DNA from: Acidipropionibacterium acidipropionici
GTDB taxonomy: Bacteria > Actinomycetota > Actinomycetes > Propionibacteriales > Propionibacteriaceae
Length of the DNA: 64,000 nt
Assembly: GCF_001441165.1 (NCBI RefSeq)
Contig: NZ_CP013126.1
Coordinates: forward strand, 1,703,551 to 1,767,550
Direction: 5' to 3'
The notes under the pieces were generated by a model. It did no database searches, was not told the origin of the DNA, and saw only the letters and a program-made list of their open reading frames with translations. Numbering within the stretch: the first letter of the stretch is position 1; every line of letters begins with the position of its first letter. Positions 52,078-64,000 of the stretch are shown here, piece after piece. The translations under genes were made by a program, and so were the position numbers.

Positions 52078-53424
52078 ATGTACGACAGCATCATCGTCGG
52101 GGCCGGTCTGTCCGGTCTGACGGCCGCCACCGACCTCGTCGCGCAGGGCCGCGACATCCTGGTGCTGGAGGCCCGGGACAGGGTCGGCGGCCGGGTGGAG
52201 AACGCGGGCCTGGCCGGCGGCGAGGTTGTCGAGCTCGGCGGGCAGTGGGTCTCCGAGGCCCACGAGCAGATGCGCTCCCTGATCACCGCGCAGGGACTGG
52301 CTTTCGCGGGTCCCACCAGTGGCGACGTCGTCGTGAAGATGCACGGCACCGTCTCCCAGGTGCCCTCGGCCTCGGCCGCCAAGGACTCCCTGACCCCCTT
52401 CGAGTTCGCCGACCTGGGCCAGGGCCTGCTGCGCTTCCGCCGGCTGGCCGAGCGGATCGCCCAGAATCCGGTGTGGACCCAGGCCAACCGCGCCTGGCTC
52501 TCCCAGACCCTGGGCCAGTGGATCAACTCCAACCTTCGCACAGACGGCGGCCGGGCCTACTTCACGGCACTCACCGCCCGCGCCCTCGGAGTCGCCCCCG
52601 AGTCCGCCGCCCTCATCGACGCGCTCGCGAAGGCCGGCGACGGCGTCGACCTGGAATCACTCGTCGCCGTCAACGGAGACCTGGCGCAGCAGCGGGTGGT
52701 CGGCGGCGTCGCGCAGGTGGCCGACAATCTGGCCATCGGCTTGGGCGACGCCCTGCGCCTCTCGACGCCGGTGGTCGGAATCGTCCGTGAGGCCGATCAC
52801 GCCGTCGTCGTGACCCGTGACGGGGAGCGCCTGGAGGCGCGCACCGTCGTGGTGGCGCTGCCTCCCCGCCTCCTCGTCGATCTGACCTTCGATCCACCGC
52901 TGCCCGAGGAGAGGGTCCAGCTGGCCGAGAAGGTGCCGCCGGGCAACGTCATCAAGGCTTTCCTGGTCTACGACTCCCCGTGGTGGCGTCGCAGCGGTGC
53001 CTCGGGGCAGATGGGCGCCGATGAGGGCGCGGTCCGGGTGATGTTCGACACCTCCGATGACACCACCGGCAAGGGCGTCCTCATGGGATTCTTCGAGGGG
53101 GCCGAGGCCTCCGGGTACGGCAGGCTGTCGGTCTCCCTGCGCCAGAGGGCCTTCGAGGAGGTCGTCGAGGGGGCCTTCGGCAAGGCGCCGTCCGAACCCG
53201 TCGAGTACCTCGACCGGGACTGGTTGTCGGAGCGCTACACGGGCGGCTGCCACGGCGCCCACTTCGCACCCGGGCTGTGGACCACCAGCGGCCCGGTGCT
53301 CGCCCAGCCCCTGGACACGGTGTTCTTCGCCGGAGCCGAGTACGCCACATCCTTCAACGGATACATGGAGGGCGCGGTGCGCCGCGGCCACGAGGTGGTC
53401 GACGAGGTGACCGCCGCCCTCTGA
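52078..53424 (+). CDS. Flavin-containing amine oxidase
   Basis: A 448-residue FAD enzyme of the monoamine/putrescine oxidase family, oxidising a primary amine to an aldehyde with release of ammonia and hydrogen peroxide. The Rossmann start is SIIVGAGLSGLTAATDLV, followed by VLEARDRVGGRVEN and the ELGGQWV region; the C-terminal flavin-binding end is DTVFFAGAEYATSFNGYM. GGAGG lies five bases before the ATG. No signal peptide, so it is cytoplasmic. Single gene with its own terminator. Substrate not determined. Confidence 0.92.
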   Translation: MYDSIIVGAGLSGLTAATDLVAQGRDILVLEARDRVGGRVENAGLAGGEVVELGGQWVSEAHEQMRSLITAQGLAFAGPTSGDVVVKMHGTVSQVPSASAAKDSLTPFEFADLGQGLLRFRRLAERIAQNPVWTQANRAWLSQTLGQWINSNLRTDGGRAYFTALTARALGVAPESAALIDALAKAGDGVDLESLVAVNGDLAQQRVVGGVAQVADNLAIGLGDALRLSTPVVGIVREADHAVVVTRDGERLEARTVVVALPPRLLVDLTFDPPLPEERVQLAEKVPPGNVIKAFLVYDSPWWRRSGASGQMGADEGAVRVMFDTSDDTTGKGVLMGFFEGAEASGYGRLSVSLRQRAFEEVVEGAFGKAPSEPVEYLDRDWLSERYTGGCHGAHFAPGLWTTSGPVLAQPLDTVFFAGAEYATSFNGYMEGAVRRGHEVVDEVTAAL

Positions 53425-53543: not shown

Positions 53544-54104
53544 TCAGGCGGCGGCCTGCCAGCGCTGGGTGGTGGCGACCAGGGAGTTGACGACCTCGGC
53601 CAGCTCGCCGGCGCGGCGGGCCTGCGGGGCGACGCCGTTCTGGTCGAAGTCGGTGAACAGTCCCAGGGCGACCGAGGAGCGGATGGCGATCATCGAGAAG
53701 TTGGCGACGATCTGGCGCCAGTGCTCGGTGGCGCGGACGCCGCCGTCGGCCCCGTAGGAGATGAAGGCGATCGGCTTGCCGGAGATCTCCTTGCCCAGCC
53801 AGTCGATGGCGTTCTTCATGGCTCCCGGGACCGAGTGGTTGTACTCGGGGGTCACCAGGATGTAGGCGTCGAAGGACTCCATCTTGCGGCCCCAGCTGGC
53901 GACGGCCGGATCCTCGAAGGGCTCGGTGAGGGCCATCGGGCTGACCGGAGCGTCGAAGACGGGCAGGTGGTACTCGGCCAGCGGGACGACCTCGAACTCG
54001 ACACCGTCCAGTCCGAGCTCCTTGGCGGACGACTCGACCCAACGGGCCACGTGGGCGGAGTTGCGGCCCTGGCGCACGGAGCCGGAGATGATGCCGATCT
54101 TCAT
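53544..54104 (-). CDS. NADPH-dependent FMN reductase
   Basis: A 186-residue flavodoxin-fold reductase. The FMN phosphate loop is SGSVRQGRNSAHVA near the N-terminus, the family signature ILVTPEYNHSVPGAMKNAID spans about residues 82-101, and FISYGADGGVRA follows. It resembles azoreductase/ArsH-like quinone reductases. AAAGG lies seven bases before the ATG. Probably role in stress or electron transfer to quinones. Confidence 0.92.
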   Translation of the reverse strand: MKIGIISGSVRQGRNSAHVARWVESSAKELGLDGVEFEVVPLAEYHLPVFDAPVSPMALTEPFEDPAVASWGRKMESFDAYILVTPEYNHSVPGAMKNAIDWLGKEISGKPIAFISYGADGGVRATEHWRQIVANFSMIAIRSSVALGLFTDFDQNGVAPQARRAGELAEVVNSLVATTQRWQAAA

Positions 54105-54468: not shown

Positions 54469-56826
54469 TCAGTCCTCCGGCCACGCGACCCGGTGGTGGT
54501 CGGAGGCCCGGGACCCCTCTCCGATCGGCTTGCGGCCGTCGGGCCCGGCCACCGAGACGCTGAAGGCCTGGACCAGGGGGTCGGCGAGCCCGACCATCCG
54601 CATGTCGGCGATGAGCGCCCCGTCGCGGCACGGGATGCGCCAGCGCAGCGACGCCGGGCCCTCGGCGGTGAGGATCCGCGACTCCAGCGGCCCGGGATCG
54701 GGCAGGATCGGGCCGGTCCTCTCCAGCGCCCGCTCCAGCCTGGCGTGCCTCTCCTCGGTGGTGGCGTCGCGCAGCACATTGCGGGCCAGACGGTAGTGCT
54801 CCACCCCGATGCAGCGCCCCGAGATGACGGCGGCATCGAGCCTTCGCGCAGCATCCAGGGTCTGGGGCCACAGCGTCACCGACGCCGAGGGGGCCCCGGC
54901 CGCCTCGAGCACGCCCCGCAGCAGGTCGCCGGCCACCCGCCAGGTGCCGAAGCTGTCCGAGTTGGCCATCACGACCACCCCGACCCCCGACGCCGGGTGC
55001 CAGCACATGTGGGAGGAGTAGCCGGGCAGCCCTCCGGAGTGCTGGACGATTCTTCCGAACCGGTGGTCGGCCTCCACGATGACGCCGTATCCGTACCCGG
55101 CGCCGTCCAGATTCTTGCCCTCGAATGGCCAGTCGGTGGTGAGCATCAGGGTGTGGGCGGTCTGCATCCGGCGGCGGGTGGCGGTGCTGAGCACGGCCTC
55201 GTGGGCCGGGTCGTGGAAGTCGTCGAAGGCCGATCCCAGAAAGTGCATCCAGGTGGCCAGGTCGGCGACATCGCTGTACAGCTCGCCGATGCAGCCCAGG
55301 GCCCCGGCGTCCAGGACGGGCTGGGCGGTGAACGTCTCACCGGAGTCGACGGTCCGGTAGCCGGCCGCCAGATCCGTGCCCTCGGGGTAGAGGGAGGCCT
55401 TCGGCCGGGTCATGGACAGGCCGAGAGGGTTGAGGATGCGCTCGGCGATCACCTCGTCGACGGGCCGGTGGGTGCGTGCCTCGATGGCCCGCCCGACCAG
55501 GGACACGCCGAGATTCGAGTACTGGTAGGTGGTGCCGGGGTAGGCCGACAGGGTGAGCCCCTCCTCGATGACGCCGGCGATCTCCCCGCGCGGGGCGGGG
55601 AGGTGGTCGTCCCCCCACGGGTTGTCCTCGGCCAGTCCGGAGCGGTTGCTCAGCAGCTCCTCCAGGGTGGCGTCGAAGCCGGTGCGGGTGTCGGGCATCG
55701 AGGCGCGGTCGATGCCGGGGATGAAGCGGGCGGCGGGATCCGAGAGGTCCAGCAGGCCGTCGTCGCGCAGCGACAGGGCGGTCGCCGCGAGGAAGGACTT
55801 CGTCATCGAGGCGATCCGGAAGACGGTGCGGGCGGTGGTCTCCGAGTCGTCGAGCCGAGGCCGTCCGTGGGCCTGAACCGCCACCACCTCGCCGCGGAAG
55901 GTCACCGCTGCCACGCAGGCGGGCGCCTGGGCCAGGGTGCGTGGGTCCAGACGCTGCGGAAGAACCGACTCGGCGGCGGTGCTCACCCGTGCAGCGGCGT
56001 CGCGCAGGACGCCGTCGAGGCCCTGGATGTCCGATCCGACGGCGGCGTCCAGGCCGTTGGCCGCCCCGGAGCGACGCGCCTCGGCGCGCACCTCGGCGGC
56101 GAAGGCGGCCACCAGGTCGCGGGCCGCGGCGGTGTTGGCGGCGTCCACCTCGCGGGCGGCGGCCACCAGTTCGGCCAGCGAGTAGCCCTCGGTGCTCATC
56201 GCGGCGTCATCCCAGCCCGACAGGCTCTCCGCGCTCGCCTCGGGATGGAACTGGAGCCCGCGGACGTGCCGGCCGATCCGGAAGGCCTGGTTGGCCAGGG
56301 CGGCCGAGGAGGCCAGCAGGACCGAGCCGGGGGGAAGCTCGGTGATCATGTCCTGGTGGTTCTCGATCATCGGGGCGCCCTCGCCGAGAGTGCCCAGCAG
56401 ACGGTCGGAACGGCCCAGGTCGTTGGGGCAGATGAGGGTGGCCCCGCGCTCCTTGGGGCCGTGATCGGCCCGCACCTCGCCGCCGGCCACGTGGGCCAAC
56501 AGTTGGCCGCCCAGGCAGATGCCCAGGGTCGGCAGGTCGGCGTCGATGGCCTGGGCCGCCAGATCACGTTCAGCGGGCAGCCAGGGGCCCTTGACGTCGT
56601 CATCGGGCATCATGCCGCCGCCCAGCATCACCAGGCCGTCGTAGCCCTCGATGCTGTCGGGCAGCCCCTCGGAGCCGAGCTTCTCGACGACCCTCAGCCC
56701 GGACTCGGCGAGCCAGTCCCCGAGCCGTCGCGGCCCGGAGGTGGGGGAGTTGACGATCACCAGGACGGCCGGGCCGTCGCCCGCGGCCCGGGTATCGCCG
56801 GACGGGGTGTGCTGGGGAGATGTCAT
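54469..56826 (-). CDS. Fusion: class I glutamine amidotransferase domain plus beta-lactamase-like serine hydrolase
   Basis: A 785-residue two-domain cytoplasmic protein. Residues 20-215 are a GATase1 domain with nucleophile Cys 104 in LGICLGGQLLAH and the His 194/Glu 196 pair in LQFHPEAS. After a helical linker, residues 290-650 are a class C beta-lactamase/DD-peptidase-type hydrolase: SMTK with Ser 340 and Lys 343, YSN with Tyr 436, and HSGG near residue 596. The end is an extra beta domain. ATG 56826 has AAGGA upstream. It is 13 bp behind an M19 dipeptidase gene. All catalytic residues are kept in both halves. A role in amide or peptide hydrolysis is inference. Confidence 0.88.
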   Translation of the reverse strand: MTSPQHTPSGDTRAAGDGPAVLVIVNSPTSGPRRLGDWLAESGLRVVEKLGSEGLPDSIEGYDGLVMLGGGMMPDDDVKGPWLPAERDLAAQAIDADLPTLGICLGGQLLAHVAGGEVRADHGPKERGATLICPNDLGRSDRLLGTLGEGAPMIENHQDMITELPPGSVLLASSAALANQAFRIGRHVRGLQFHPEASAESLSGWDDAAMSTEGYSLAELVAAAREVDAANTAAARDLVAAFAAEVRAEARRSGAANGLDAAVGSDIQGLDGVLRDAAARVSTAAESVLPQRLDPRTLAQAPACVAAVTFRGEVVAVQAHGRPRLDDSETTARTVFRIASMTKSFLAATALSLRDDGLLDLSDPAARFIPGIDRASMPDTRTGFDATLEELLSNRSGLAEDNPWGDDHLPAPRGEIAGVIEEGLTLSAYPGTTYQYSNLGVSLVGRAIEARTHRPVDEVIAERILNPLGLSMTRPKASLYPEGTDLAAGYRTVDSGETFTAQPVLDAGALGCIGELYSDVADLATWMHFLGSAFDDFHDPAHEAVLSTATRRRMQTAHTLMLTTDWPFEGKNLDGAGYGYGVIVEADHRFGRIVQHSGGLPGYSSHMCWHPASGVGVVVMANSDSFGTWRVAGDLLRGVLEAAGAPSASVTLWPQTLDAARRLDAAVISGRCIGVEHYRLARNVLRDATTEERHARLERALERTGPILPDPGPLESRILTAEGPASLRWRIPCRDGALIADMRMVGLADPLVQAFSVSVAGPDGRKPIGEGSRASDHHRVAWPED

Positions 56827-56839
56827 CGGCAGTCCTTCC

Positions 56840-57934
56840 TCAGGAGGCCCGGGTGGCCCGGGCCTGTGCTGCGGCAACGATGGTGTGAGGGTCCGGCTGG
56901 CCGGCTCGTCCCTGGAGGAAGGCGCGGTAGGGATCGTCGTTGGCCTCCAGGACGCGCAGCACGTTGCGGTGCGCCGCGGCCTCCAGATCGGCCTGCGACC
57001 ATCCCCGCCGGGCCAGTTCGGCGAGAAGATCCTGGTAGTGGGAGACGTCGTCCAGGCCGATCGGCATGGAGTCGGTGCCGTCGTAGTCGGCGCCGATCCC
57101 CACCGCGGCGACCCCGGCCACCTCGCGGATGTGGTCCATGTGGTCGGCGACGTCGCCGATCCCGACGGCCGGCGGCTCCCCGACCTCCCCGGCCTCCACC
57201 CAGTCGTGGCGGGCCTGGGAGACGAATGAGGGCACGAAGGCCACCATCACCACCCCGCCGGCGGCGCCGATCGCGGCGATGACGTCGTCGGGCACATTGC
57301 GCGGATGGTCGCACAGCGCCAGGGCGGCTGAGTGGGAGACCATCACCGGCGAGGTGCTCACCGCCAGGGCGTCGCGCATCGTGGAGGGGGCGACGTGGGC
57401 CAGATCGACCACCATCCCGATGCGGTTCATCTCGGCGACGACGTCGCGGCCGAAGGCGCTCAGCCCGCCGTTGCGGGGCTCGTCGGTGGCCGAGTCGGCC
57501 CAGTCGGTGGTCACCGACCAGGTGAGCGTCATGTAGCGGGCCCCGGCCCTGGCGTAGGCCCGCAGCACCGCCCCAGAGTCGTCGATCTGGGCGCCTCCCT
57601 CGACGCCGATGAGGGAGGCGATCCGGCCCTCGGTCATCGCCCGGCGCACCTGCTCGGCGGTGCGCGCCAGACCCAGCTCGCCGGGGTGTGCCTCGGCCAT
57701 CCGGTGCACGAAGTCGATCTGCTCCAGGGTGGCGGTCACCTGCTCGGCGCCGCGCAGGACCGGATCCACCCACACCGACCAGAACTGGCCGGCCACCCCG
57801 CCGGCGCGCAGCCGGGGGATGTCGGTGTGCAGCCCGGCCTGCGGCCCGTCGAGTCCGTCGACGCGGTAGCCGCGGGAGGACCGGCTGGCCCAAGCCAGAT
57901 CGTTGTGGCCGTCGATGACCGGGATCACGGGCAT
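56840..57934 (-). CDS. Membrane dipeptidase family (M19) metallopeptidase
   Basis: A 364-residue zinc dipeptidase of the renal-dipeptidase family, whose bacterial members cleave dipeptides including L-D forms. Metal ligands are in PVIDGHNDLAW (His, Asp), LIGVEGG (bridging Glu), MVSHSAA (His) and GIGADYDG. Length is normal. The ATG overlaps the upstream aminotransferase stop (TGATG), so the two are coupled; the fusion hydrolase follows after 13 bp. No signal peptide: it works on imported peptides in the cytoplasm. Confidence 0.93.
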   Translation of the reverse strand: MPVIPVIDGHNDLAWASRSSRGYRVDGLDGPQAGLHTDIPRLRAGGVAGQFWSVWVDPVLRGAEQVTATLEQIDFVHRMAEAHPGELGLARTAEQVRRAMTEGRIASLIGVEGGAQIDDSGAVLRAYARAGARYMTLTWSVTTDWADSATDEPRNGGLSAFGRDVVAEMNRIGMVVDLAHVAPSTMRDALAVSTSPVMVSHSAALALCDHPRNVPDDVIAAIGAAGGVVMVAFVPSFVSQARHDWVEAGEVGEPPAVGIGDVADHMDHIREVAGVAAVGIGADYDGTDSMPIGLDDVSHYQDLLAELARRGWSQADLEAAAHRNVLRVLEANDDPYRAFLQGRAGQPDPHTIVAAAQARATRAS

Positions 57935-58806
57935 CACTGTCTCCGGGCGTCCAGGCCGGTGTTGATGAGTTCGGTGGCCCGGTGGTCGACGGTGATCCTG
58001 CGCCCGTCGAGGGTGCGGATCGGGGCGGCCCCCCGGGTGCTGGAGCACAGCCACATGGCGCCCGCGGTCTCCAGGTCGTTGACCGACAGGGTGTCCACCC
58101 GGGTCGGCACCCCCTGGCGCTCCAAGTCGGCGAAGACGTCGCCCTGGGTGGTGCCCGGCAGGATGCCCAGGCTGACGGGCGGGGTGATGTAGGTGCCGTC
58201 GATGCGGGCGATCAGAGTCGAGCTGGGGCCCTCCAGCACGTAGCCGTCGGAGCTGATGAAGATGACGTCGTCGGCCCCTCGGCGCTCGGCCTCGCGCAGC
58301 GCCGCCTTGTTGATGGCGTAGGCGAGGGTCTTGGCGCCCGCAAGGAGCCAGGGGGAGGTGTCGGCGACGTCGTGGCGGTAGCCGCGGTCCAGCAGCACGA
58401 CGTCGAGCCCCTCGGCCTGAGCCGGGGCCGGATCGTCGGCCAGGAATCCCAGCGCCCAGCCGGTGGGGGCCGAGGCGGCCCCCTCGATGCCGCGGGTCAT
58501 GATGAACTTCACCGCGGTCAGACCCGGCTGATCGGCCATGTCGGCGGCCGCGGCCCCCACGGCCCGGCGCCACAGGTCCAGATCGGGTTCGGGCAGATCG
58601 AGCATCCGCGCCGACCGGGCGAATCTGGCCAGGTGCGCCTCCAGGGCCAGCGGGGTGCCGTGCAGCACGGCTGCGACCTCGAAGATGCCGTCTCCCCGGG
58701 TGATACCGAGGTCGTCGACCCGCACGAGGGTCTCGTCGGGTTCGTGACGGGTGATCGAACCACCGGGGACCGACAGGTCGATCAGGTGAAGGGTGAGGGG
58801 TTTCAT
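57934..58806 (-). CDS. Class IV PLP-dependent aminotransferase (paralogue B)
   Basis: A 290-residue fold-type IV enzyme with DLGITRGDGIFEVAAVLHG, the catalytic Lys in LAGAKTLAYAIN and the ISSDGYVLEGPSST phosphate loop. It is the same length as, and clearly related to, the protein at 27320-28192. ATG 58806 has AAGGA five bases upstream; a TTG at 59040 would read through the intergenic operator and is rejected. First gene of the operon with the dipeptidase and fusion hydrolase, which favours a D- or branched-chain amino acid aminotransferase over folate synthesis. Confidence 0.88.
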   Translation of the reverse strand: MKPLTLHLIDLSVPGGSITRHEPDETLVRVDDLGITRGDGIFEVAAVLHGTPLALEAHLARFARSARMLDLPEPDLDLWRRAVGAAAADMADQPGLTAVKFIMTRGIEGAASAPTGWALGFLADDPAPAQAEGLDVVLLDRGYRHDVADTSPWLLAGAKTLAYAINKAALREAERRGADDVIFISSDGYVLEGPSSTLIARIDGTYITPPVSLGILPGTTQGDVFADLERQGVPTRVDTLSVNDLETAGAMWLCSSTRGAAPIRTLDGRRITVDHRATELINTGLDARRQ

Positions 58807-59006
58807 GGAAGTCCTTCCCGGGTGCAGCAGCGGCATGGTCGAGTCTAGGGATATCAGTCGTCCGGGGATGTGGGGCGTCCACGGATGCCGGGCCGGGGCC
58901 GGGCGGCGGTGGCCGGCCGATGACCTGCCGATAGTCTGCCATCGGGGGAGGGCCGGGTGCCGGGAAACACCCGCACGGCGCGCGATGGGGACAGGGTCAG
59001 CACAGG

Positions 59007-59023
59007 ATCGGAAATTTTCCGAT
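59007..59023. promoter_or_regulatory. Operator palindrome ATCGGAAATTTTCCGAT
   Basis: Perfect 8+1+8 palindrome in the middle of the divergent control region, 42 bp upstream of the TTGACA of the uptake operon. No regulator gene is adjacent within the window. Confidence 0.65.
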
Positions 59024-59064
59024 GAAGGACTGCGCGGCAACGTGTTCTTCCGGGTTTTGGTGAG

Positions 59065-59092
59065 TTGACACTGTGTTTCGAGTGCGTAACAC
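59065..59092 (+). promoter_or_regulatory. Probable promoter of the oligopeptide ABC operon
   Basis: A consensus TTGACA (59065-59070), 16-bp spacer and TAACAC (59087-59092) precede the SBP gene by 111 bp. The -10 is imperfect. Confidence 0.55.
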
Positions 59093-59203
59093 TCCCGGGA
59101 TTTTCGGTCGAACCTATTGACCGGTGCTGTGGGAATGCGGTTCGATCACTCCATCGACCGCGCTGTGAGCGGCCGACTCCCGGTTCTGACGAAGGGTATT
59201 GCG

Positions 59204-61051
59204 ATGCGAACCAGATCCCGTTCCTTCCGCTGTCTGTCGGCCTCCCTGGTCGCCGGCGCACTGCTGGCGGCCGGCTCGATGGGTGGGGCGGGGGTGGCAC
59301 GGGCATCCGGCAACAATGACGTCGCCGATTCCTCGGCCTCCGCGTCGGCGGCCAAGGGCAACGTGCTGCGCATCGCCACCTCCGGATTCGTCGACTCCTT
59401 CAACCCCTTCACGTCGATCTACCTGCTGCCCACCAATGCGCTGCGCTACATGTACGAGAACCTGGTGGCCAACGACCAGAAGGACGGCTCACCGACCAAG
59501 GGTCTGGCGGACTCATGGAAGGCCACCGACGGCGGCAAGACGTGGACCTTCACCATGCAGGACGGCCTCAAGTGGTCCGACGGGCAGCCGATCACCTCCG
59601 CCGACGTCGAGTACACCTACAACCAGATGCTCAAGAATCCGGATCTGGGCGAGGCCAACGGGAACCTGGTGACCAACTTCGCCTCCGTCGAGGCCCCCGA
59701 TGCCAAGACCGTCGTCATCCACATGAAGGCCCCCCAGGCCCCGAACCCCGGCGTTGAGATCCCGATCGTGCCCAAGCACGTGTGGGAGAAGGTCAAGGAC
59801 CCGGCCAAGTTCTCCAACGACTCCCACACCGTCGTCTCCGGCCCGCTGCAGCTGGAGAGCTACAAGGCCAACCAGCAGATCAACTTCAAGACCAACCCCA
59901 ACTACTGGCGGGGCGCTCCCAAGTACGACGGAATCCAGTACATCTACTACACGAACTCCGACGCCCAGGTGCAGGCCCTGCGCTCCGGCGCCGTCGACTT
60001 CGTCACCGGCCTGTCGTCCACCCAGTTCAATGCGCTGAAGGGGGCCAAGGGCATCACCACCCACTCGGGTGTCGGACGCCGCTACAACTCCCTGAGCCTC
60101 AACGTCGGCATGGAGACCCGCGACAACAAGGCCTACGGCACCGGGTCGGCAGCCCTCAAGGATGTCAAGGTGCGCCAGGCCCTGCGCCAGTCCATCGACA
60201 CCAAGACCCTCGTCGCGAAGGTGCTGTCCGGGCAGGGCACCGTCGCCACCAGCTTCATCCCCGCCTCCTTCCCGAAGTGGTCGCTGCCGGCCGACGACTC
60301 GGTGATCGTCAAGTACGACCCCGAGGCCGCGAAGAAGACCCTCGACGCCGACGGCTGGAAGGCCGGGGCCGACGGGATCCGCGTCAAGGACGGTAAGAAG
60401 CTCAGCCTGCGGCTCATGACCGACTCGGGCGAGCCCAATGAGCAGAACGCCGCCGAGTACATCAAGCCCTGGCTCAAGAACGTCGGCATCGACCTGAAGG
60501 TCGAGTCCACCGACGCCGACACGGTCTCCGCGAAGGCGATCAAGGGCGACTACGACATGTACTTCTCCGGCTGGTCGGTGGGCCCCGATCCCGACTACCA
60601 GCTCGGTATCAACACCTGCTCCAACCGTGCCCAGCGCACCGACGGCACGGGCGGCACGTCTCAGGACGGCTACTGCTCGGCCGCCTACGACAAGCTCTAC
60701 GCCCAGCAGCGCTCCGAGCTCGACGAGACCAAGCGCCGGGCCATCGTCAAGCAGATGCTGGAGCTCAACTACACCGACACCCCGCAGATCGCGACCTGGT
60801 ACGCCAACTCCCTGGAGGCCTACCGCTCCGACCGGTTCACCGGGTTCAAGCTCCAGCCGGCCTCCAACGGCATCATCGCCAACCAGTCGGGGTACTGGGG
60901 ATACCTGGACCTCGCCCCGGTCAGCGGCTCCGACAACGACTCCAGCTCCCACACCGGTCTGATCGTCGGCGGAATCGTCGTGGCGGTGATCGTCGTGGCC
61001 GGCGTCGTGTACCTGGTGCTGCGCCGCCGCAGGGCCGACGAGACGGAGTGA
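59204..61051 (+). CDS. Family 5 solute-binding protein with C-terminal membrane anchor
   Basis: A 615-residue SBP_bac_5 protein. It has a normal signal peptide (about 1-35, ending GVARASG) without lipobox. The core includes YLLPTNALRYMYENLV, KWSDGQPITSADVEYTYNQM and the DVKVRQALRQSIDTKTLV segment. Instead of a lipid anchor it ends in a membrane helix, LIVGGIVVAVIVVAGVVYLV, followed by RRRRADE. ATG 59204 has GAAGGG seven bases upstream. First gene of an operon with two permeases and a double ATPase, so it captures peptides for this importer. The anchor type differs from the lipoprotein at 1214-2872. Confidence 0.94.
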   Translation: MRTRSRSFRCLSASLVAGALLAAGSMGGAGVARASGNNDVADSSASASAAKGNVLRIATSGFVDSFNPFTSIYLLPTNALRYMYENLVANDQKDGSPTKGLADSWKATDGGKTWTFTMQDGLKWSDGQPITSADVEYTYNQMLKNPDLGEANGNLVTNFASVEAPDAKTVVIHMKAPQAPNPGVEIPIVPKHVWEKVKDPAKFSNDSHTVVSGPLQLESYKANQQINFKTNPNYWRGAPKYDGIQYIYYTNSDAQVQALRSGAVDFVTGLSSTQFNALKGAKGITTHSGVGRRYNSLSLNVGMETRDNKAYGTGSAALKDVKVRQALRQSIDTKTLVAKVLSGQGTVATSFIPASFPKWSLPADDSVIVKYDPEAAKKTLDADGWKAGADGIRVKDGKKLSLRLMTDSGEPNEQNAAEYIKPWLKNVGIDLKVESTDADTVSAKAIKGDYDMYFSGWSVGPDPDYQLGINTCSNRAQRTDGTGGTSQDGYCSAAYDKLYAQQRSELDETKRRAIVKQMLELNYTDTPQIATWYANSLEAYRSDRFTGFKLQPASNGIIANQSGYWGYLDLAPVSGSDNDSSSHTGLIVGGIVVAVIVVAGVVYLVLRRRRADETE

Positions 61052-61058
61052 TGCGAAG

Positions 61059-62093
61059 ATGACCAACGCCGTGCCCGCCACGGCCTCCGCCATCGAGGAG
61101 GTGGACGAGCCGGAACGCGGGGTCCCCGCCACCCGGTTCCTCCTCTCCAAGGTGGGCGGGGCCCTCATCTCCCTGGTCCTGGTGATCATCCTCGGGTTCT
61201 TCCTGTTCAAGCTGATGCCGGGCGACCCGGTGGCGTCGATGGCCAAGGAGCGCCCGATGACCGCGGCCCAGATGGACCAGCTGCGCGAGCAGCTGGGCCT
61301 CAACAAGCCGATGATCGAGCAGTTCTGGGACTACCTGGTCAACGTCTTCACGTTGAACTTCGGAACCTCATACGTCTACGAGCAGTCGGTGGCCAGCCTC
61401 ATCGGGCAGTACTTCTGGAACACCATCCTGCTCACCGGCACCTCGGCGGTCATCGCGATCGCCCTCGGCCTGTGGCTCGGGCAGAGGTCGGCGTGGAAGC
61501 GCGGCACCTGGTTCGACCGGATCACCTCGGGCACCTCCCTGGTGTTCTGGTCGGTGCCGACCTTCTGGCTCGGCCTCATCCTGCTCATGATCTTCGGGGG
61601 CACCCTCCAGTGGTTCCCGACCGGCGGGATGATGAGCCCCGACCCGCCCGACGGCTTCTTCCCCAAGGCCCTCGACGTCGCCTCCCACATGGTGCTTCCG
61701 GTGATCACCATGGTGGCGGTGGTCTACGCCCAGTACGTCATGGTGATGCGGGCCTCCCTCATCGAGGAGATGAGCGCGGACTACCTCACCACCGCCCGCG
61801 CCAAGGGCCTCATGGAGGACAAGGTGCGCAGCCGCCATGCGGTGCCCAACGCCCTGCTGCCCACCGTCACCCTGGTGTTCATGCACCTGGGCGGGCTCAT
61901 CGCGGGCGCGGTGACGGTGGAGACGGTGTTCTCCTGGCCGGGGCTCGGCAAGCTCACCTATGAGGCGATCCGCGGCCCGGACCTGCCGCTGCTGCAGGGC
62001 ACCTTCGTGGTGTTCTCGGCCATCATCATTCTGATGAACCTGCTGGCCGATCTGGTCTACCGGCAGCTCGACCCGAGGGTGAGGACGTCATGA
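61059..62093 (+). CDS. Oligopeptide ABC transporter permease, DppB-like
   Basis: A 344-residue permease, slightly long because of a 25-residue cytoplasmic leader. Family features are GGALISLVLVIILGFFLFKL as first helix, LMPGDPVASMAKERPMT, the periplasmic LREQLGLNKPMIEQFWDY and the EAA loop SADYLTTARAKGLMEDKV. It begins 7 bp after the SBP gene and overlaps the next permease by ATGA. Confidence 0.94.
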   Translation: MTNAVPATASAIEEVDEPERGVPATRFLLSKVGGALISLVLVIILGFFLFKLMPGDPVASMAKERPMTAAQMDQLREQLGLNKPMIEQFWDYLVNVFTLNFGTSYVYEQSVASLIGQYFWNTILLTGTSAVIAIALGLWLGQRSAWKRGTWFDRITSGTSLVFWSVPTFWLGLILLMIFGGTLQWFPTGGMMSPDPPDGFFPKALDVASHMVLPVITMVAVVYAQYVMVMRASLIEEMSADYLTTARAKGLMEDKVRSRHAVPNALLPTVTLVFMHLGGLIAGAVTVETVFSWPGLGKLTYEAIRGPDLPLLQGTFVVFSAIIILMNLLADLVYRQLDPRVRTS

Positions 62094-63019
62094 CCGTCAC
62101 CACACCGAATGAGGCGGGAGCCGCCCCTCGCTCCGCCCGGGCGATGGTCTGGGCGCGGAGGGGCGCCGCCGCCAGGGACTTCTGGTCCCAGTTCCGCCGC
62201 AATCCGGCCGGCATGACCGGCCTGGTCGTGCTCGTGGTGATCATCGTGCTGGCCATCCTGGCACCGGTGCTCGCCCCCCAGCGGATGCTCGACGTCACCC
62301 AGCTGCTCGACAGCCCGCGCTACGCCCCGCCGTCGGCCGAACACCCCTTCGGCACCGACCATCAGGGTCGCGAGATCTGGGTCCGGATGCTGTGGGGGGC
62401 CCGCGTCTCCCTGGTCGTGGGCTTCGCCGCCACCGCCATGTCGATGATCATCGGCACCATCATCGGGATCGCCGCCGGCCACTTCTCCGGCTGGGTGGGC
62501 GGCCTGCTGATGCGCATCGTCGACTTCTTCCTGGTGCTGCCCTCCCTCATCCTGGCGATCGTGCTGGCCGCCGTGCTGGCACGCGGGGTCACCACCATCG
62601 TCATCGCCATCGGCCTCACATCCTGGGCCGGCACGGCCCGCGTGGTGCGCTCCCAGACGCTGTCCATCGAGTCGCGCGACTACGTCCAGCGGGCCCGGGT
62701 GCTGGGGGCGGGGCACTGGCACATCATCGTCAAGCACCTGCTGCCCGCCGTGTTGCCACTGGTGCTGGCCAACACCACCCTGACCGTGGGATCGGCCATC
62801 ATCTCGGAGTCGACGCTGTCTTTCCTGGGGCTGGGAGACACCACCAAGCAGTCCTGGGGCACCATCCTCAAGAACTCGATGGACGTCTCGGCGGCCACCA
62901 GCGGCTACTGGTGGTACGTCCTCATCCCGGGCCTGGCGATCCTGCTCGTCGTGATGGCCTTCACCCTGGTGGGCCGCGCCGTGGAGAGCATCGTCAATCC
63001 GACCCTGAGGAGCCGATGA
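62090..63019 (+). CDS. Oligopeptide ABC transporter permease, DppC-like
   Basis: A 309-residue permease with the DppC entry FWSQFRRNPAGMTGLVVLV, the EHPFGTDHQGREIWVRMLWG segment that marks this subfamily, and the EAA loop ESRDYVQRARVLGAGHWHI. Coupled to the upstream permease; its TGA is directly followed by the ATG of the ATPase gene. Confidence 0.94.
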   Translation: MTVTTPNEAGAAPRSARAMVWARRGAAARDFWSQFRRNPAGMTGLVVLVVIIVLAILAPVLAPQRMLDVTQLLDSPRYAPPSAEHPFGTDHQGREIWVRMLWGARVSLVVGFAATAMSMIIGTIIGIAAGHFSGWVGGLLMRIVDFFLVLPSLILAIVLAAVLARGVTTIVIAIGLTSWAGTARVVRSQTLSIESRDYVQRARVLGAGHWHIIVKHLLPAVLPLVLANTTLTVGSAIISESTLSFLGLGDTTKQSWGTILKNSMDVSAATSGYWWYVLIPGLAILLVVMAFTLVGRAVESIVNPTLRSR

Positions 63020-64000
63020 ATGCCCGATCTCATCTTCGATGACGTCTCCATCACCTACACCACCTCGGGCCGCCATGACCGCGGCCAGGTGGCGGCGGTG
63101 CGCAACGTGTCACTGGACCTGCCCGCCGGCGGCACCCTCGGGGTGGCCGGCGAGTCCGGATCCGGGAAGTCCACCCTGGCGATGAGCGTGCTGAGGCTGC
63201 TGCCGAAGAACGCGACACTCACCGGATCGGTGCGCATCGGCGACACCGACGTCGCGGACCTGTCCTTCGGCAAGCTGCGGGCGGTGCGCTGGGCCGAGGC
63301 CTCGATCATCTTCCAGGGGGCGATGCACTCGTTGAACCCCGTGCACACCGTCGGGCGACAGATCACCGAGGCCCTCGAACTGCACGTGACCGACAAGTGG
63401 AAGACCGACAAGGCCCGCGCCGCGCGGGTCGACGAGCTGCTAGCGGCCGTCGACATGCCGCGCGAGAAGGCGTCGTCCTACCCCCACGAGCTGTCGGGGG
63501 GCCAGCGCCAGCGCATCATGATCGCGATGGCCCTGGCCTGCGAGCCCGACATCATCGTGGCCGACGAGCCCACCACCGCCCTGGACGTCATCGTCCAGAA
63601 GCAGATCCTCGACATGATCAACGGGCTCGTCACCGAACGGGGCATCTCCCTCATGATGATCAGCCACGACCTGTCGGTGCTGGCCACCGCCTGCTCGCGG
63701 ATCGCCGTGATGAAGGACGGGGAGCTCGTCGAGGTGGGGCCCTCCCACCAGATCTGCCTGGAGCCGCGGGAGCCCTACACCCGCCAGCTCGCCTCGGCCT
63801 TCCCCACCATCGGGGACCCGGCGTCCCGGATGAACCCGGTCTCGCGCCGTGAGCGTCCGCCCCGCCCGCCGGTCGCCGAGCGCCACGCGATGACCGACGA
63901 GGCGCTGCTGGAGGCCAAGGGACTCAACGTCACCTATCGCACCGGCAAGGCCACCGTGAGGGCGGTCCGCGACGTCGATTTGACCGTCCACGCCGGAGAG
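63020..64000 (+). CDS. Oligopeptide ABC transporter double ATPase, DppD-DppF fusion (3' part beyond window)
   Basis: The 327 visible codons contain one complete ABC domain and the start of a second. The first has Walker A GESGSGKSTLAMSVL, Q-loop IIFQGAMHSLNP, signature LSGGQRQRIMIAMAL, Walker B DIIVADEPTTALDV, and the H-loop MMISHDLSVL, then the oligopeptide-specific extension EPREPYTRQLASAFP. After a Pro/Arg linker, LLEAKGLNVTYRTGKATVRA opens the second domain, cut by the window end. Both ATPases of the importer are therefore one polypeptide. Confidence 0.93.
   Translation, partial: MPDLIFDDVSITYTTSGRHDRGQVAAVRNVSLDLPAGGTLGVAGESGSGKSTLAMSVLRLLPKNATLTGSVRIGDTDVADLSFGKLRAVRWAEASIIFQGAMHSLNPVHTVGRQITEALELHVTDKWKTDKARAARVDELLAAVDMPREKASSYPHELSGGQRQRIMIAMALACEPDIIVADEPTTALDVIVQKQILDMINGLVTERGISLMMISHDLSVLATACSRIAVMKDGELVEVGPSHQICLEPREPYTRQLASAFPTIGDPASRMNPVSRRERPPRPPVAERHAMTDEALLEAKGLNVTYRTGKATVRAVRDVDLTVHAGE

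Follow-up and report, generated by a model that had tools for sequence, protein, structure and literature searches.

Gene layout and control region of the island

The 64,000-nucleotide stretch of the Acidipropionibacterium acidipropionici chromosome analysed here (hereafter the window; C1:1703551–1767550 in a 3.65-Mb single-contig genome) ends in two divergent gene sets, one for peptide-degrading enzymes and one for a peptide importer, which are together called the island. The features are listed below in window numbering; for those beyond the window, positions are those of the fetched stretch L002, to which 52000 is to be added.

54469–56826, minus strand: fusion of a class I glutamine amidotransferase (GATase) domain (residues ~1–260; PF00117, 59 bits) and a class C/S12 serine hydrolase domain (residues ~275–785; PF00144, 159 bits)
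56840–57934, minus strand: M19 dipeptidase (PF01244, 349 bits)
57934–58806, minus strand: class IV aminotransferase AT4, CpuTA1/Rv0812-like, putative D-Ala/D-Glu transaminase (PF01063, 154 bits)
58807–59203, no strand: divergent control region of 397 bp, from the sequence
59009–59021, no strand: 13-bp palindrome CGGAAATTTTCCG, candidate operator
59204–61051, plus strand: family 5 substrate-binding protein (SBP) with a hydrophobic N terminus and a C-terminal membrane anchor (PF00496, 297 bits; hydropathy)
61059–62093, plus strand: OppB-type permease (PF00528 and PF19300)
62090–63019, plus strand: OppC-type permease (PF00528 and PF12911)
63020–64000, on to window-equivalent 64681, plus strand: OppD-OppF double ATPase (OppDF; two ABC_tran stretches)
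L002 12678–13676, importer operon, beyond the window: S66 LD-carboxypeptidase
L002 13676–14143, importer operon, beyond the window: AsnC-type regulator
L002 14316–15206, importer operon, beyond the window: SH1, class-A-fold hydrolase
L002 15203–16273, importer operon, beyond the window: C45 hydrolase
L002 16270–17094, importer operon, beyond the window: SH2, class-A-fold hydrolase

The AT4 stop and the M19 start share bases (TGATG), and 13 bases, with a GGAAGGA-like ribosome site, separate the M19 stop from the start of the fusion. The three genes are thus coupled on one strand, as the first-pass annotation of the window had proposed. Its description of an oligopeptide importer with an anchored SBP and a double ATPase, running in the opposite direction from a shared 397-bp region, also agrees with the Pfam matches, the hydropathy and the gap between the operons. 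The importer operon extends past the end of the window, with five genes after OppDF. In hydropathy plots the N terminus of the SBP is hydrophobic and a transmembrane helix lies at its C terminus; the catabolic enzymes have no hydrophobic N-terminal stretch and hence look cytosolic.

The gap between the operons holds sequence islands that are kept across five species. The pattern CGGAAWWWWTCCG matches only once in the whole genome when both strands are read, namely at the palindrome CGGAAATTTTCCG. The pattern is present in four of the five gaps of the genus, the fifth (G003) having one mismatch. Of the 187 loci fetched, 11 contain it, and each of these covers that gap in G027, G047, G063 or the window's genome. 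Since the AsnC gene is restricted to loci of the genus among the 23 loci mapped, the AsnC-type regulator is the candidate for binding the palindrome, and it probably controls both operons through this site. A scan for promoters and terminators gave no hit.

The neighbourhood on the catabolic side should also be described. In each of the five genus genomes sampled, a flavin amine oxidase gene (window 52078–53424) converges on the island, and in the non-genus locus G117 it adjoins the GATase gene; it may be part of the island's metabolism. In G000, G003 and G047, the fusion and the amine oxidase gene are separated by an FMN reductase gene (window 53544–54104), to which no match was obtained in the G027 and G063 loci.

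Conservation of the two operons and their domain fusions

The family sample comprises 147 genomes, four of which, besides the window's own, belong to Acidipropionibacterium. All five genomes of the genus are syntenic, with AT4-M19-GATase-hydrolase on one side of the gap and SBP-OppB-OppC-OppDF-S66-AsnC-SH1-C45-SH2 on the other, although one (G063) is a draft with broken reading frames. This synteny shows that the island is more than a chance assembly. Seven of the 147 genomes have an M19 gene with at least 70% identity; a GATase gene adjoins it in all seven and the importer in six, while the remaining locus (G045) is confined to a contig of 7.9 kb.

A scan of GTDB contigs with a GATase alignment gave 390 relatives, of which the best 80 were kept. 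The top three of these come from the Microbacteriaceae, namely Microbacterium, Leucobacter and Candidatus Agrococcus, and each carries M19-GATase-hydrolase. OppB and OppC lie within the fetched DNA in five of the top six loci versus three of the other 74 among the best 80, and the sixth is a 10.6-kb contig with S66-SH1-SH2. In Microbacterium, S66 follows OppDF; in Leucobacter it lies past OppDF on the opposite strand. In the class sample of 394 genomes, 10 genomes besides the window's own have an M19 match at E 1e-100 or better, all at 54–58% identity. One of them, G371, arranges SBP-OppB-OppC-OppDF-S66-SH-M19-GATase on a single strand, where SH is a hydrolase of the SH type.

The domain fusions differ between loci. 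M19 and GATase share one frame in two of 11 loci tested (G045 and Microbacterium), and GATase and hydrolase share one in three of the eight loci that hold both (the window, G003 and Leucobacter); GATase and hydrolase are separate genes in G027, G047, G063, L042 and L044. Fusion in two different pairings suggests that M19, GATase and hydrolase work together. That the divergent operons form one unit is well supported by the genus synteny, the recurrence in another family, the G371 operon and the shared fusions. The gene set or its core thus co-occurs in other genomes (five of five in the genus, the three Microbacteriaceae, and G371), and the two operons can be treated as one candidate pathway, as had been suggested from the window alone; the objection that they would not occur together elsewhere fails, because they recur as one unit.

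Enzymes of the island and their D-amino acid context

The best solved relatives of AT4 are CpuTA1 (5k3w, 269 bits) and 6q1q (189 bits). AT4 keeps the catalytic lysine as K159, and in the alignment with 5k3w and 6q1q the CpuTA1 residues R51 and K117 correspond to R37 and K100; equivalents of all three, as judged by eye, are also present in its paralogues in the same genome, so that these residues do not discriminate. CpuTA1 turns over D-Ala in lysates (PMC5131300, excerpt), and Rv0812 catalyses both the aminodeoxychorismate lyase and the D-amino acid transaminase reactions (PMC8105722, excerpt). AT4 resembles these two enzymes, its nearest solved relatives, in keeping the carboxylate residues R51 and K117 of CpuTA1 and the catalytic lysine, and differs in its gene context, which is peptide degradation and not synthesis. 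In a tree of ten sequences, the five AT4 copies of the island loci group with three copies linked to genes resembling N-succinylamino acid racemase (NSAR), and the two strongest PabC-like paralogues fall on the other side of a split supported at 100/100. The closest paralogue in the same genome, AT4b, adjoins such an NSAR-like gene. One of the PabC-like copies lies in the window itself (C1:1730948, window ~27398–28036), and the second strong copy is at C1:1311724.

M19 is the only match of its kind in its genome. Its best solved relative is 3id7 (344 bits), which we take to be Sco3058, followed by renal dipeptidase (1itq, 274 bits), and the motifs DGHND, GVEGG, DLAHV, VSHS and GADYDG, presumably formed by zinc-site residues, are kept. 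From work on Sco3058, M19 enzymes reportedly prefer L-D dipeptides. The island enzyme is like Sco3058 and renal dipeptidase in sequence and in these motifs, and differs in being bound to an operon and in places fused to GATase. S66 matches PF02016 and PF17676 above cut-off, carries the motifs GSSD, LED and GFGH, and has an N terminus that is not hydrophobic; it is, as a prediction from its sequence, the most murein-like enzyme of the set, and it lies beyond the window end, out of view of the first-pass annotation. The starts of S66 and M19 are 2.0–2.8 kb apart in seven of eight genomes of another genus and 6.7 kb apart in the eighth. The loci L153–L159, from another genus of the family and with M19 and S66 2.0–2.8 kb apart, show no importer match in the fetched stretch, and one gene separates M19 and S66 in two of the three of these loci with reading frames listed.

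The GATase domain keeps the Cys-His-Glu triad (GICLG, HPE), whose residues are invariant in all 10 aligned domains. No synthetase partner domain or gene was found among the scanned locus genes, and the domain is read as a hydrolase for that reason. A related stand-alone GATase gene is located less than 10 kb from a different Opp importer in L033, L034, L035, L045 and L047, from other actinobacteria. The hydrolase domain of the fusion has SxxK, YSN and HSG motifs, and both SH1 and SH2 have the class A motifs SxxK, SDN and KTG. SH2, when aligned with GES-14, has Arg where class A enzymes carry their deacylating Glu (Glu166 in the usual numbering), and a class A beta-lactamase reading of SH2 was rejected on this ground. 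A PDB search with the C45 sequence gave no match at E 0.001.

The gene context outside the genus points to D-amino acids. In each of the three Microbacteriaceae loci, M19 is immediately preceded by GNAT-SIS-NSAR-like genes; two of these loci are flanked by M20 genes, and the Leucobacter locus has a DadA-like oxidoreductase (168 bits, below its cut-off of 383). The Microbacterium NSAR-like enzyme is closest to structures of N-acylamino acid racemases (2ggj, 283 bits). The window's genome carries M20|GNAT-SIS-NSAR-AT4b at L149:5830–10698 (C1 ~798.8–803.7 kb), away from the island. A SIS match is found in 13 of the 147 family genomes, and the M20|GNAT-SIS-NSAR order is present in all five family genomes mapped (the window's own and four of the twelve others), followed by an AT4-like gene in three. 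The SIS protein is 224–250 residues long, and its Microbacterium copy hits no NCBIfam model at E 1e-8. The assignments are of different kinds: in L042, GNAT (PF00583) and M20 were assigned by Pfam and the racemase by NCBIfam and a PDB match; in L043 and L149, the block genes were assigned partly by Pfam and partly by homology. The acyltransferase-like protein of the window's genome has no Pfam match at 1e-5 and is 45% identical to the Microbacterium GNAT. No M20 model reaches its cut-off.

Further links of this kind occur in loci with related genes. In G004, an importer-S66-SH operon adjoins M20-GNAT-NSAR. In G011, an SH gene overlaps with a racemase gene resembling DgcA/AEE, whose best models, N-acetyl-D-Glu racemase and L-Ala-D/L-Glu epimerase, are both below cut-off, and an SBP gene is ~4 kb away. 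NSAR provides a D-to-L amino acid conversion route. As far as an excerpt on NSAR cascades goes (PMC7431475), the loci here are similar in combining GNAT-like, NSAR/OSBS-type (OSBS, o-succinylbenzoate synthase) and M20 genes; they differ in the added SIS protein, in the AT4-like gene of three of five loci, and in the model name, o-succinylbenzoate synthase. A menaquinone role of the window genome's own NSAR-like gene was set aside, since a clear, separate MenC lies near MenB (413 versus cut-off 288 and 513 versus cut-off 378 bits); the NSAR-like gene does, however, score above the OSBS cut-off. Gene linkage (GNAT/NSAR-like/M20, DadA-like and enolase-family racemase genes) and the CpuTA1-like AT4 thus provide context support for D-amino acids as products of the island.

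Proposed pathway, alternatives and comparison with ykf

Our preferred reading, to which we give a probability of about 0.6, is that the island imports D-residue peptides, with stem peptides of peptidoglycan as the most probable substrate, and catabolizes them as a source of carbon or nitrogen or in recycling. The anchored SBP, OppBC and OppDF would import peptides of the L-Ala-gamma-D-Glu-Dap(-D-Ala) type (Dap, diaminopimelate). D-Ala would then be removed by S66, acting at the L-Dap-D-Ala bond, and by the beta-lactamase-fold hydrolases; the GATase domain, as a stand-alone gamma-glutamyl hydrolase, would cut the gamma-D-Glu bond or an iso-Gln amide; M19 would split the L-Ala-D-Glu bond; and D-Glu and D-Ala would be transaminated by AT4. 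As a backup to AT4, the GNAT-SIS-NSAR-AT4b/M20 block may convert D- to L-amino acids by way of N-acylated intermediates. Gene content, synteny, fusions, the non-hydrophobic N termini of the enzymes and the conservation of the candidate operator are observed; one pathway with D-amino acid products is what we infer, and which substrate exactly enters it and which bond each enzyme cuts are assumptions. Stepwise cytosolic breakdown of D-residue peptides is probably the simplest account that uses every gene, and stem peptides probably fit it best.

Several observations weigh against this reading. The similarity of the SBP does not discriminate between ligands, and its PDB relatives leave the predicted ligand wide. 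S66 scores 99 bits against the LdcA model cut-off of 378 and also resembles MccF (60 bits versus 80 for the best match). Its association with M19 in the family (21 of 23 genomes with S66 have M19, versus 43 of 147 overall; thresholds E 1e-15 and E 1e-20, respectively; Fisher p 1.3e-11) speaks for the reading, but the test ignores the relatedness of the genomes. Nine of the 10 class-wide M19 homologues are without GATase and outside such clusters, one of them (G396) having a weakly similar SBP and OppB ~7 kb off and another (G319) lying on a stretch that ends at the contig end; the M19 family thus has other homes, and the claim is limited accordingly. Among the 11 non-genus loci picked by SH2, eight have the importer, S66 and SH without M19/GATase, and at two (G124 and G028) an importer set of this kind is missing from the locus. 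The remaining one (G117) has M19/GATase and the importer, but AT4, S66, AsnC, SH2 and C45 were not found in its locus. The NSAR-like proteins pass the OSBS model (262–290 bits versus cut-off 201), so that the NSAR label relies on solved relatives, gene context and the existence of a separate MenC; and G003 carries the island but has no SIS match. As to AT4, its best curated (NCBIfam) model is aminodeoxychorismate lyase PRK07849, with 268 bits, under the cut-off of 273, AT4b passes this cut-off at 280 bits, and two of the three arginines in the carboxylate trap of Rv0812 (PMC8105722, excerpt) are replaced in AT4 (Arg115 by Asp, Arg185 by Ser), Arg26 being kept as R37. The first-pass interpretation, import and degradation of D-residue peptides with AT4 as a possible D-amino acid enzyme, is thus partly supported: well in its single unit and, by gene context, in its D-amino acid products, with murein, another D-peptide and an antibiotic-like peptide as candidate substrates. 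The best model for AT4 is a lyase and not a D-amino acid transaminase.

These lyase scores are also what would favour AT4 being the folate enzyme PabC, accidentally co-transcribed with the peptidases. The genome has five class IV aminotransferases; the four scanned all fall in the PRK07849 group, and three of them, AT4b and the copies at C1:1311724 (312 bits) and C1:1730948 (313 bits), are above the lyase cut-off, so that on sequence grounds AT4 is not needed for p-aminobenzoate. Because of these copies and the grouping of AT4 with the NSAR-linked sequences we consider a folate role very improbable, and the AT4-M19 linkage in all five genus genomes also speaks against it. Ordinary scavenging, that is, general import of L-oligopeptides with mixed peptidases or side activities and no D-specificity, has more in its favour: the SBP is best matched by general peptide, nickel and sugar binders, with AppA first among solved relatives (1xoc, 133 bits), and the importer-S66-SH sets without M19/GATase would suit it. 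It is nevertheless rather unlikely in our estimation, as Pfam scans of the operon genes find no common L-aminopeptidase or endopeptidase family, and as D-residues are indicated by S66, by M19, by the S12 and class A folds, and by the recurring linkage with NSAR-like, DadA-like and enolase-type racemase genes.

Three beta-lactamase-fold domains and the penicillin acyltransferase-like C45 would fit uptake of an antibiotic-like compound, either a beta-lactam or a D-residue antibiotic peptide, and its inactivation or consumption by the class A, class C and C45 enzymes; in addition, animal M19 opens carbapenems. Against this stand the Arg of SH2, the Agrococcus SH1, which by eye has no Glu in the matching stretch, and the apparently cytosolic location of the enzymes. 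C45 is found only in the genus among the mapped loci, no genome-wide C45 search having been made, and the resistance models listed (25 of 34 for the fusion, 25 of 26 for SH2 and 1 of 1 for SH1) are all below cut-off. We regard an antibiotic substrate as unlikely. Breakdown of gamma-L-glutamyl peptides or glutathione conjugates would assign GATase as a gamma-glutamyl peptidase, the role of GGP1, and M19 as a Cys-Gly dipeptidase, the role of GliJ. The GATase domain does match gamma-glutamyl peptidase 1 (41.6 bits), and M19 matches GliJ (182 bits), but the M19 match to Sco3058 is stronger, the set shows no gene for a cysteine or C-S lyase, and the presence of S66, of the class A folds and of the NSAR-like gene would be left without explanation, which makes this route quite improbable.

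How Gram-positive bacteria make use of cell-wall fragments is little understood. None of the titles and abstract openings listed in the literature searches described the island. In a dairy genus, the island offers a short list of apparently soluble enzymes with a dedicated importer and a candidate operator. Degradation of D-residue peptides would also suggest roles for several orphan groups: GATases that stand alone near peptide importers, beta-lactamase-fold enzymes of the cytosol, the M19 dipeptidases of bacteria, and the PabC-like aminotransferases that actinobacteria encode next to NSAR-like genes.

The known system nearest to the proposed one is Bacillus ykfABCD, in which, according to an excerpt of the source (PMC3305447), YkfA, YkfC and YkfB together with a dipeptidase break down stem peptides. 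From the same excerpt, the likeness would lie in a cytoplasmic set with a peptide ABC importer component, an S66-type LD-carboxypeptidase, and enzymes for the gamma-D-Glu and L-Ala-D-Glu bonds, for which the island has candidates; and in the island, too, a peptide ABC importer adjoins catabolic genes. The difference is that the island is without YkfB- and YkfC-type genes, for which the non-orthologous GATase and M19 would substitute, and that it adds D-amino acid enzymes and extra beta-lactamase-fold hydrolases. No enolase-superfamily gene that could be an L-Ala-D/L-Glu epimerase is found in the island, and the four PF13378 matches in the genome are the NSAR-like gene, MenC and two weak ones (34.5 and 31.2 bits). 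Likewise, no YkfC-type NlpC/P60 gamma-D-Glu endopeptidase is present among the island genes scanned, the remaining genome not having been searched. A 2012 statement in the excerpted source holds that a peptidase splitting L-Ala from D-Glu was undescribed for any eubacterium (PMC3305447). We tentatively propose, as a possibility that we hold well short of even odds, that the island is a self-contained, non-orthologous actinobacterial pathway for murein peptides, in which GATase would cut the gamma-D-Glu bond and M19 would be the L-Ala-D-Glu peptidase, making the epimerase unnecessary. Since the epimerase and the YkfC-type enzyme, two defining features, are absent from the genes scanned, we do not count the island as a member of the ykf system; by analogy, it probably works like one.

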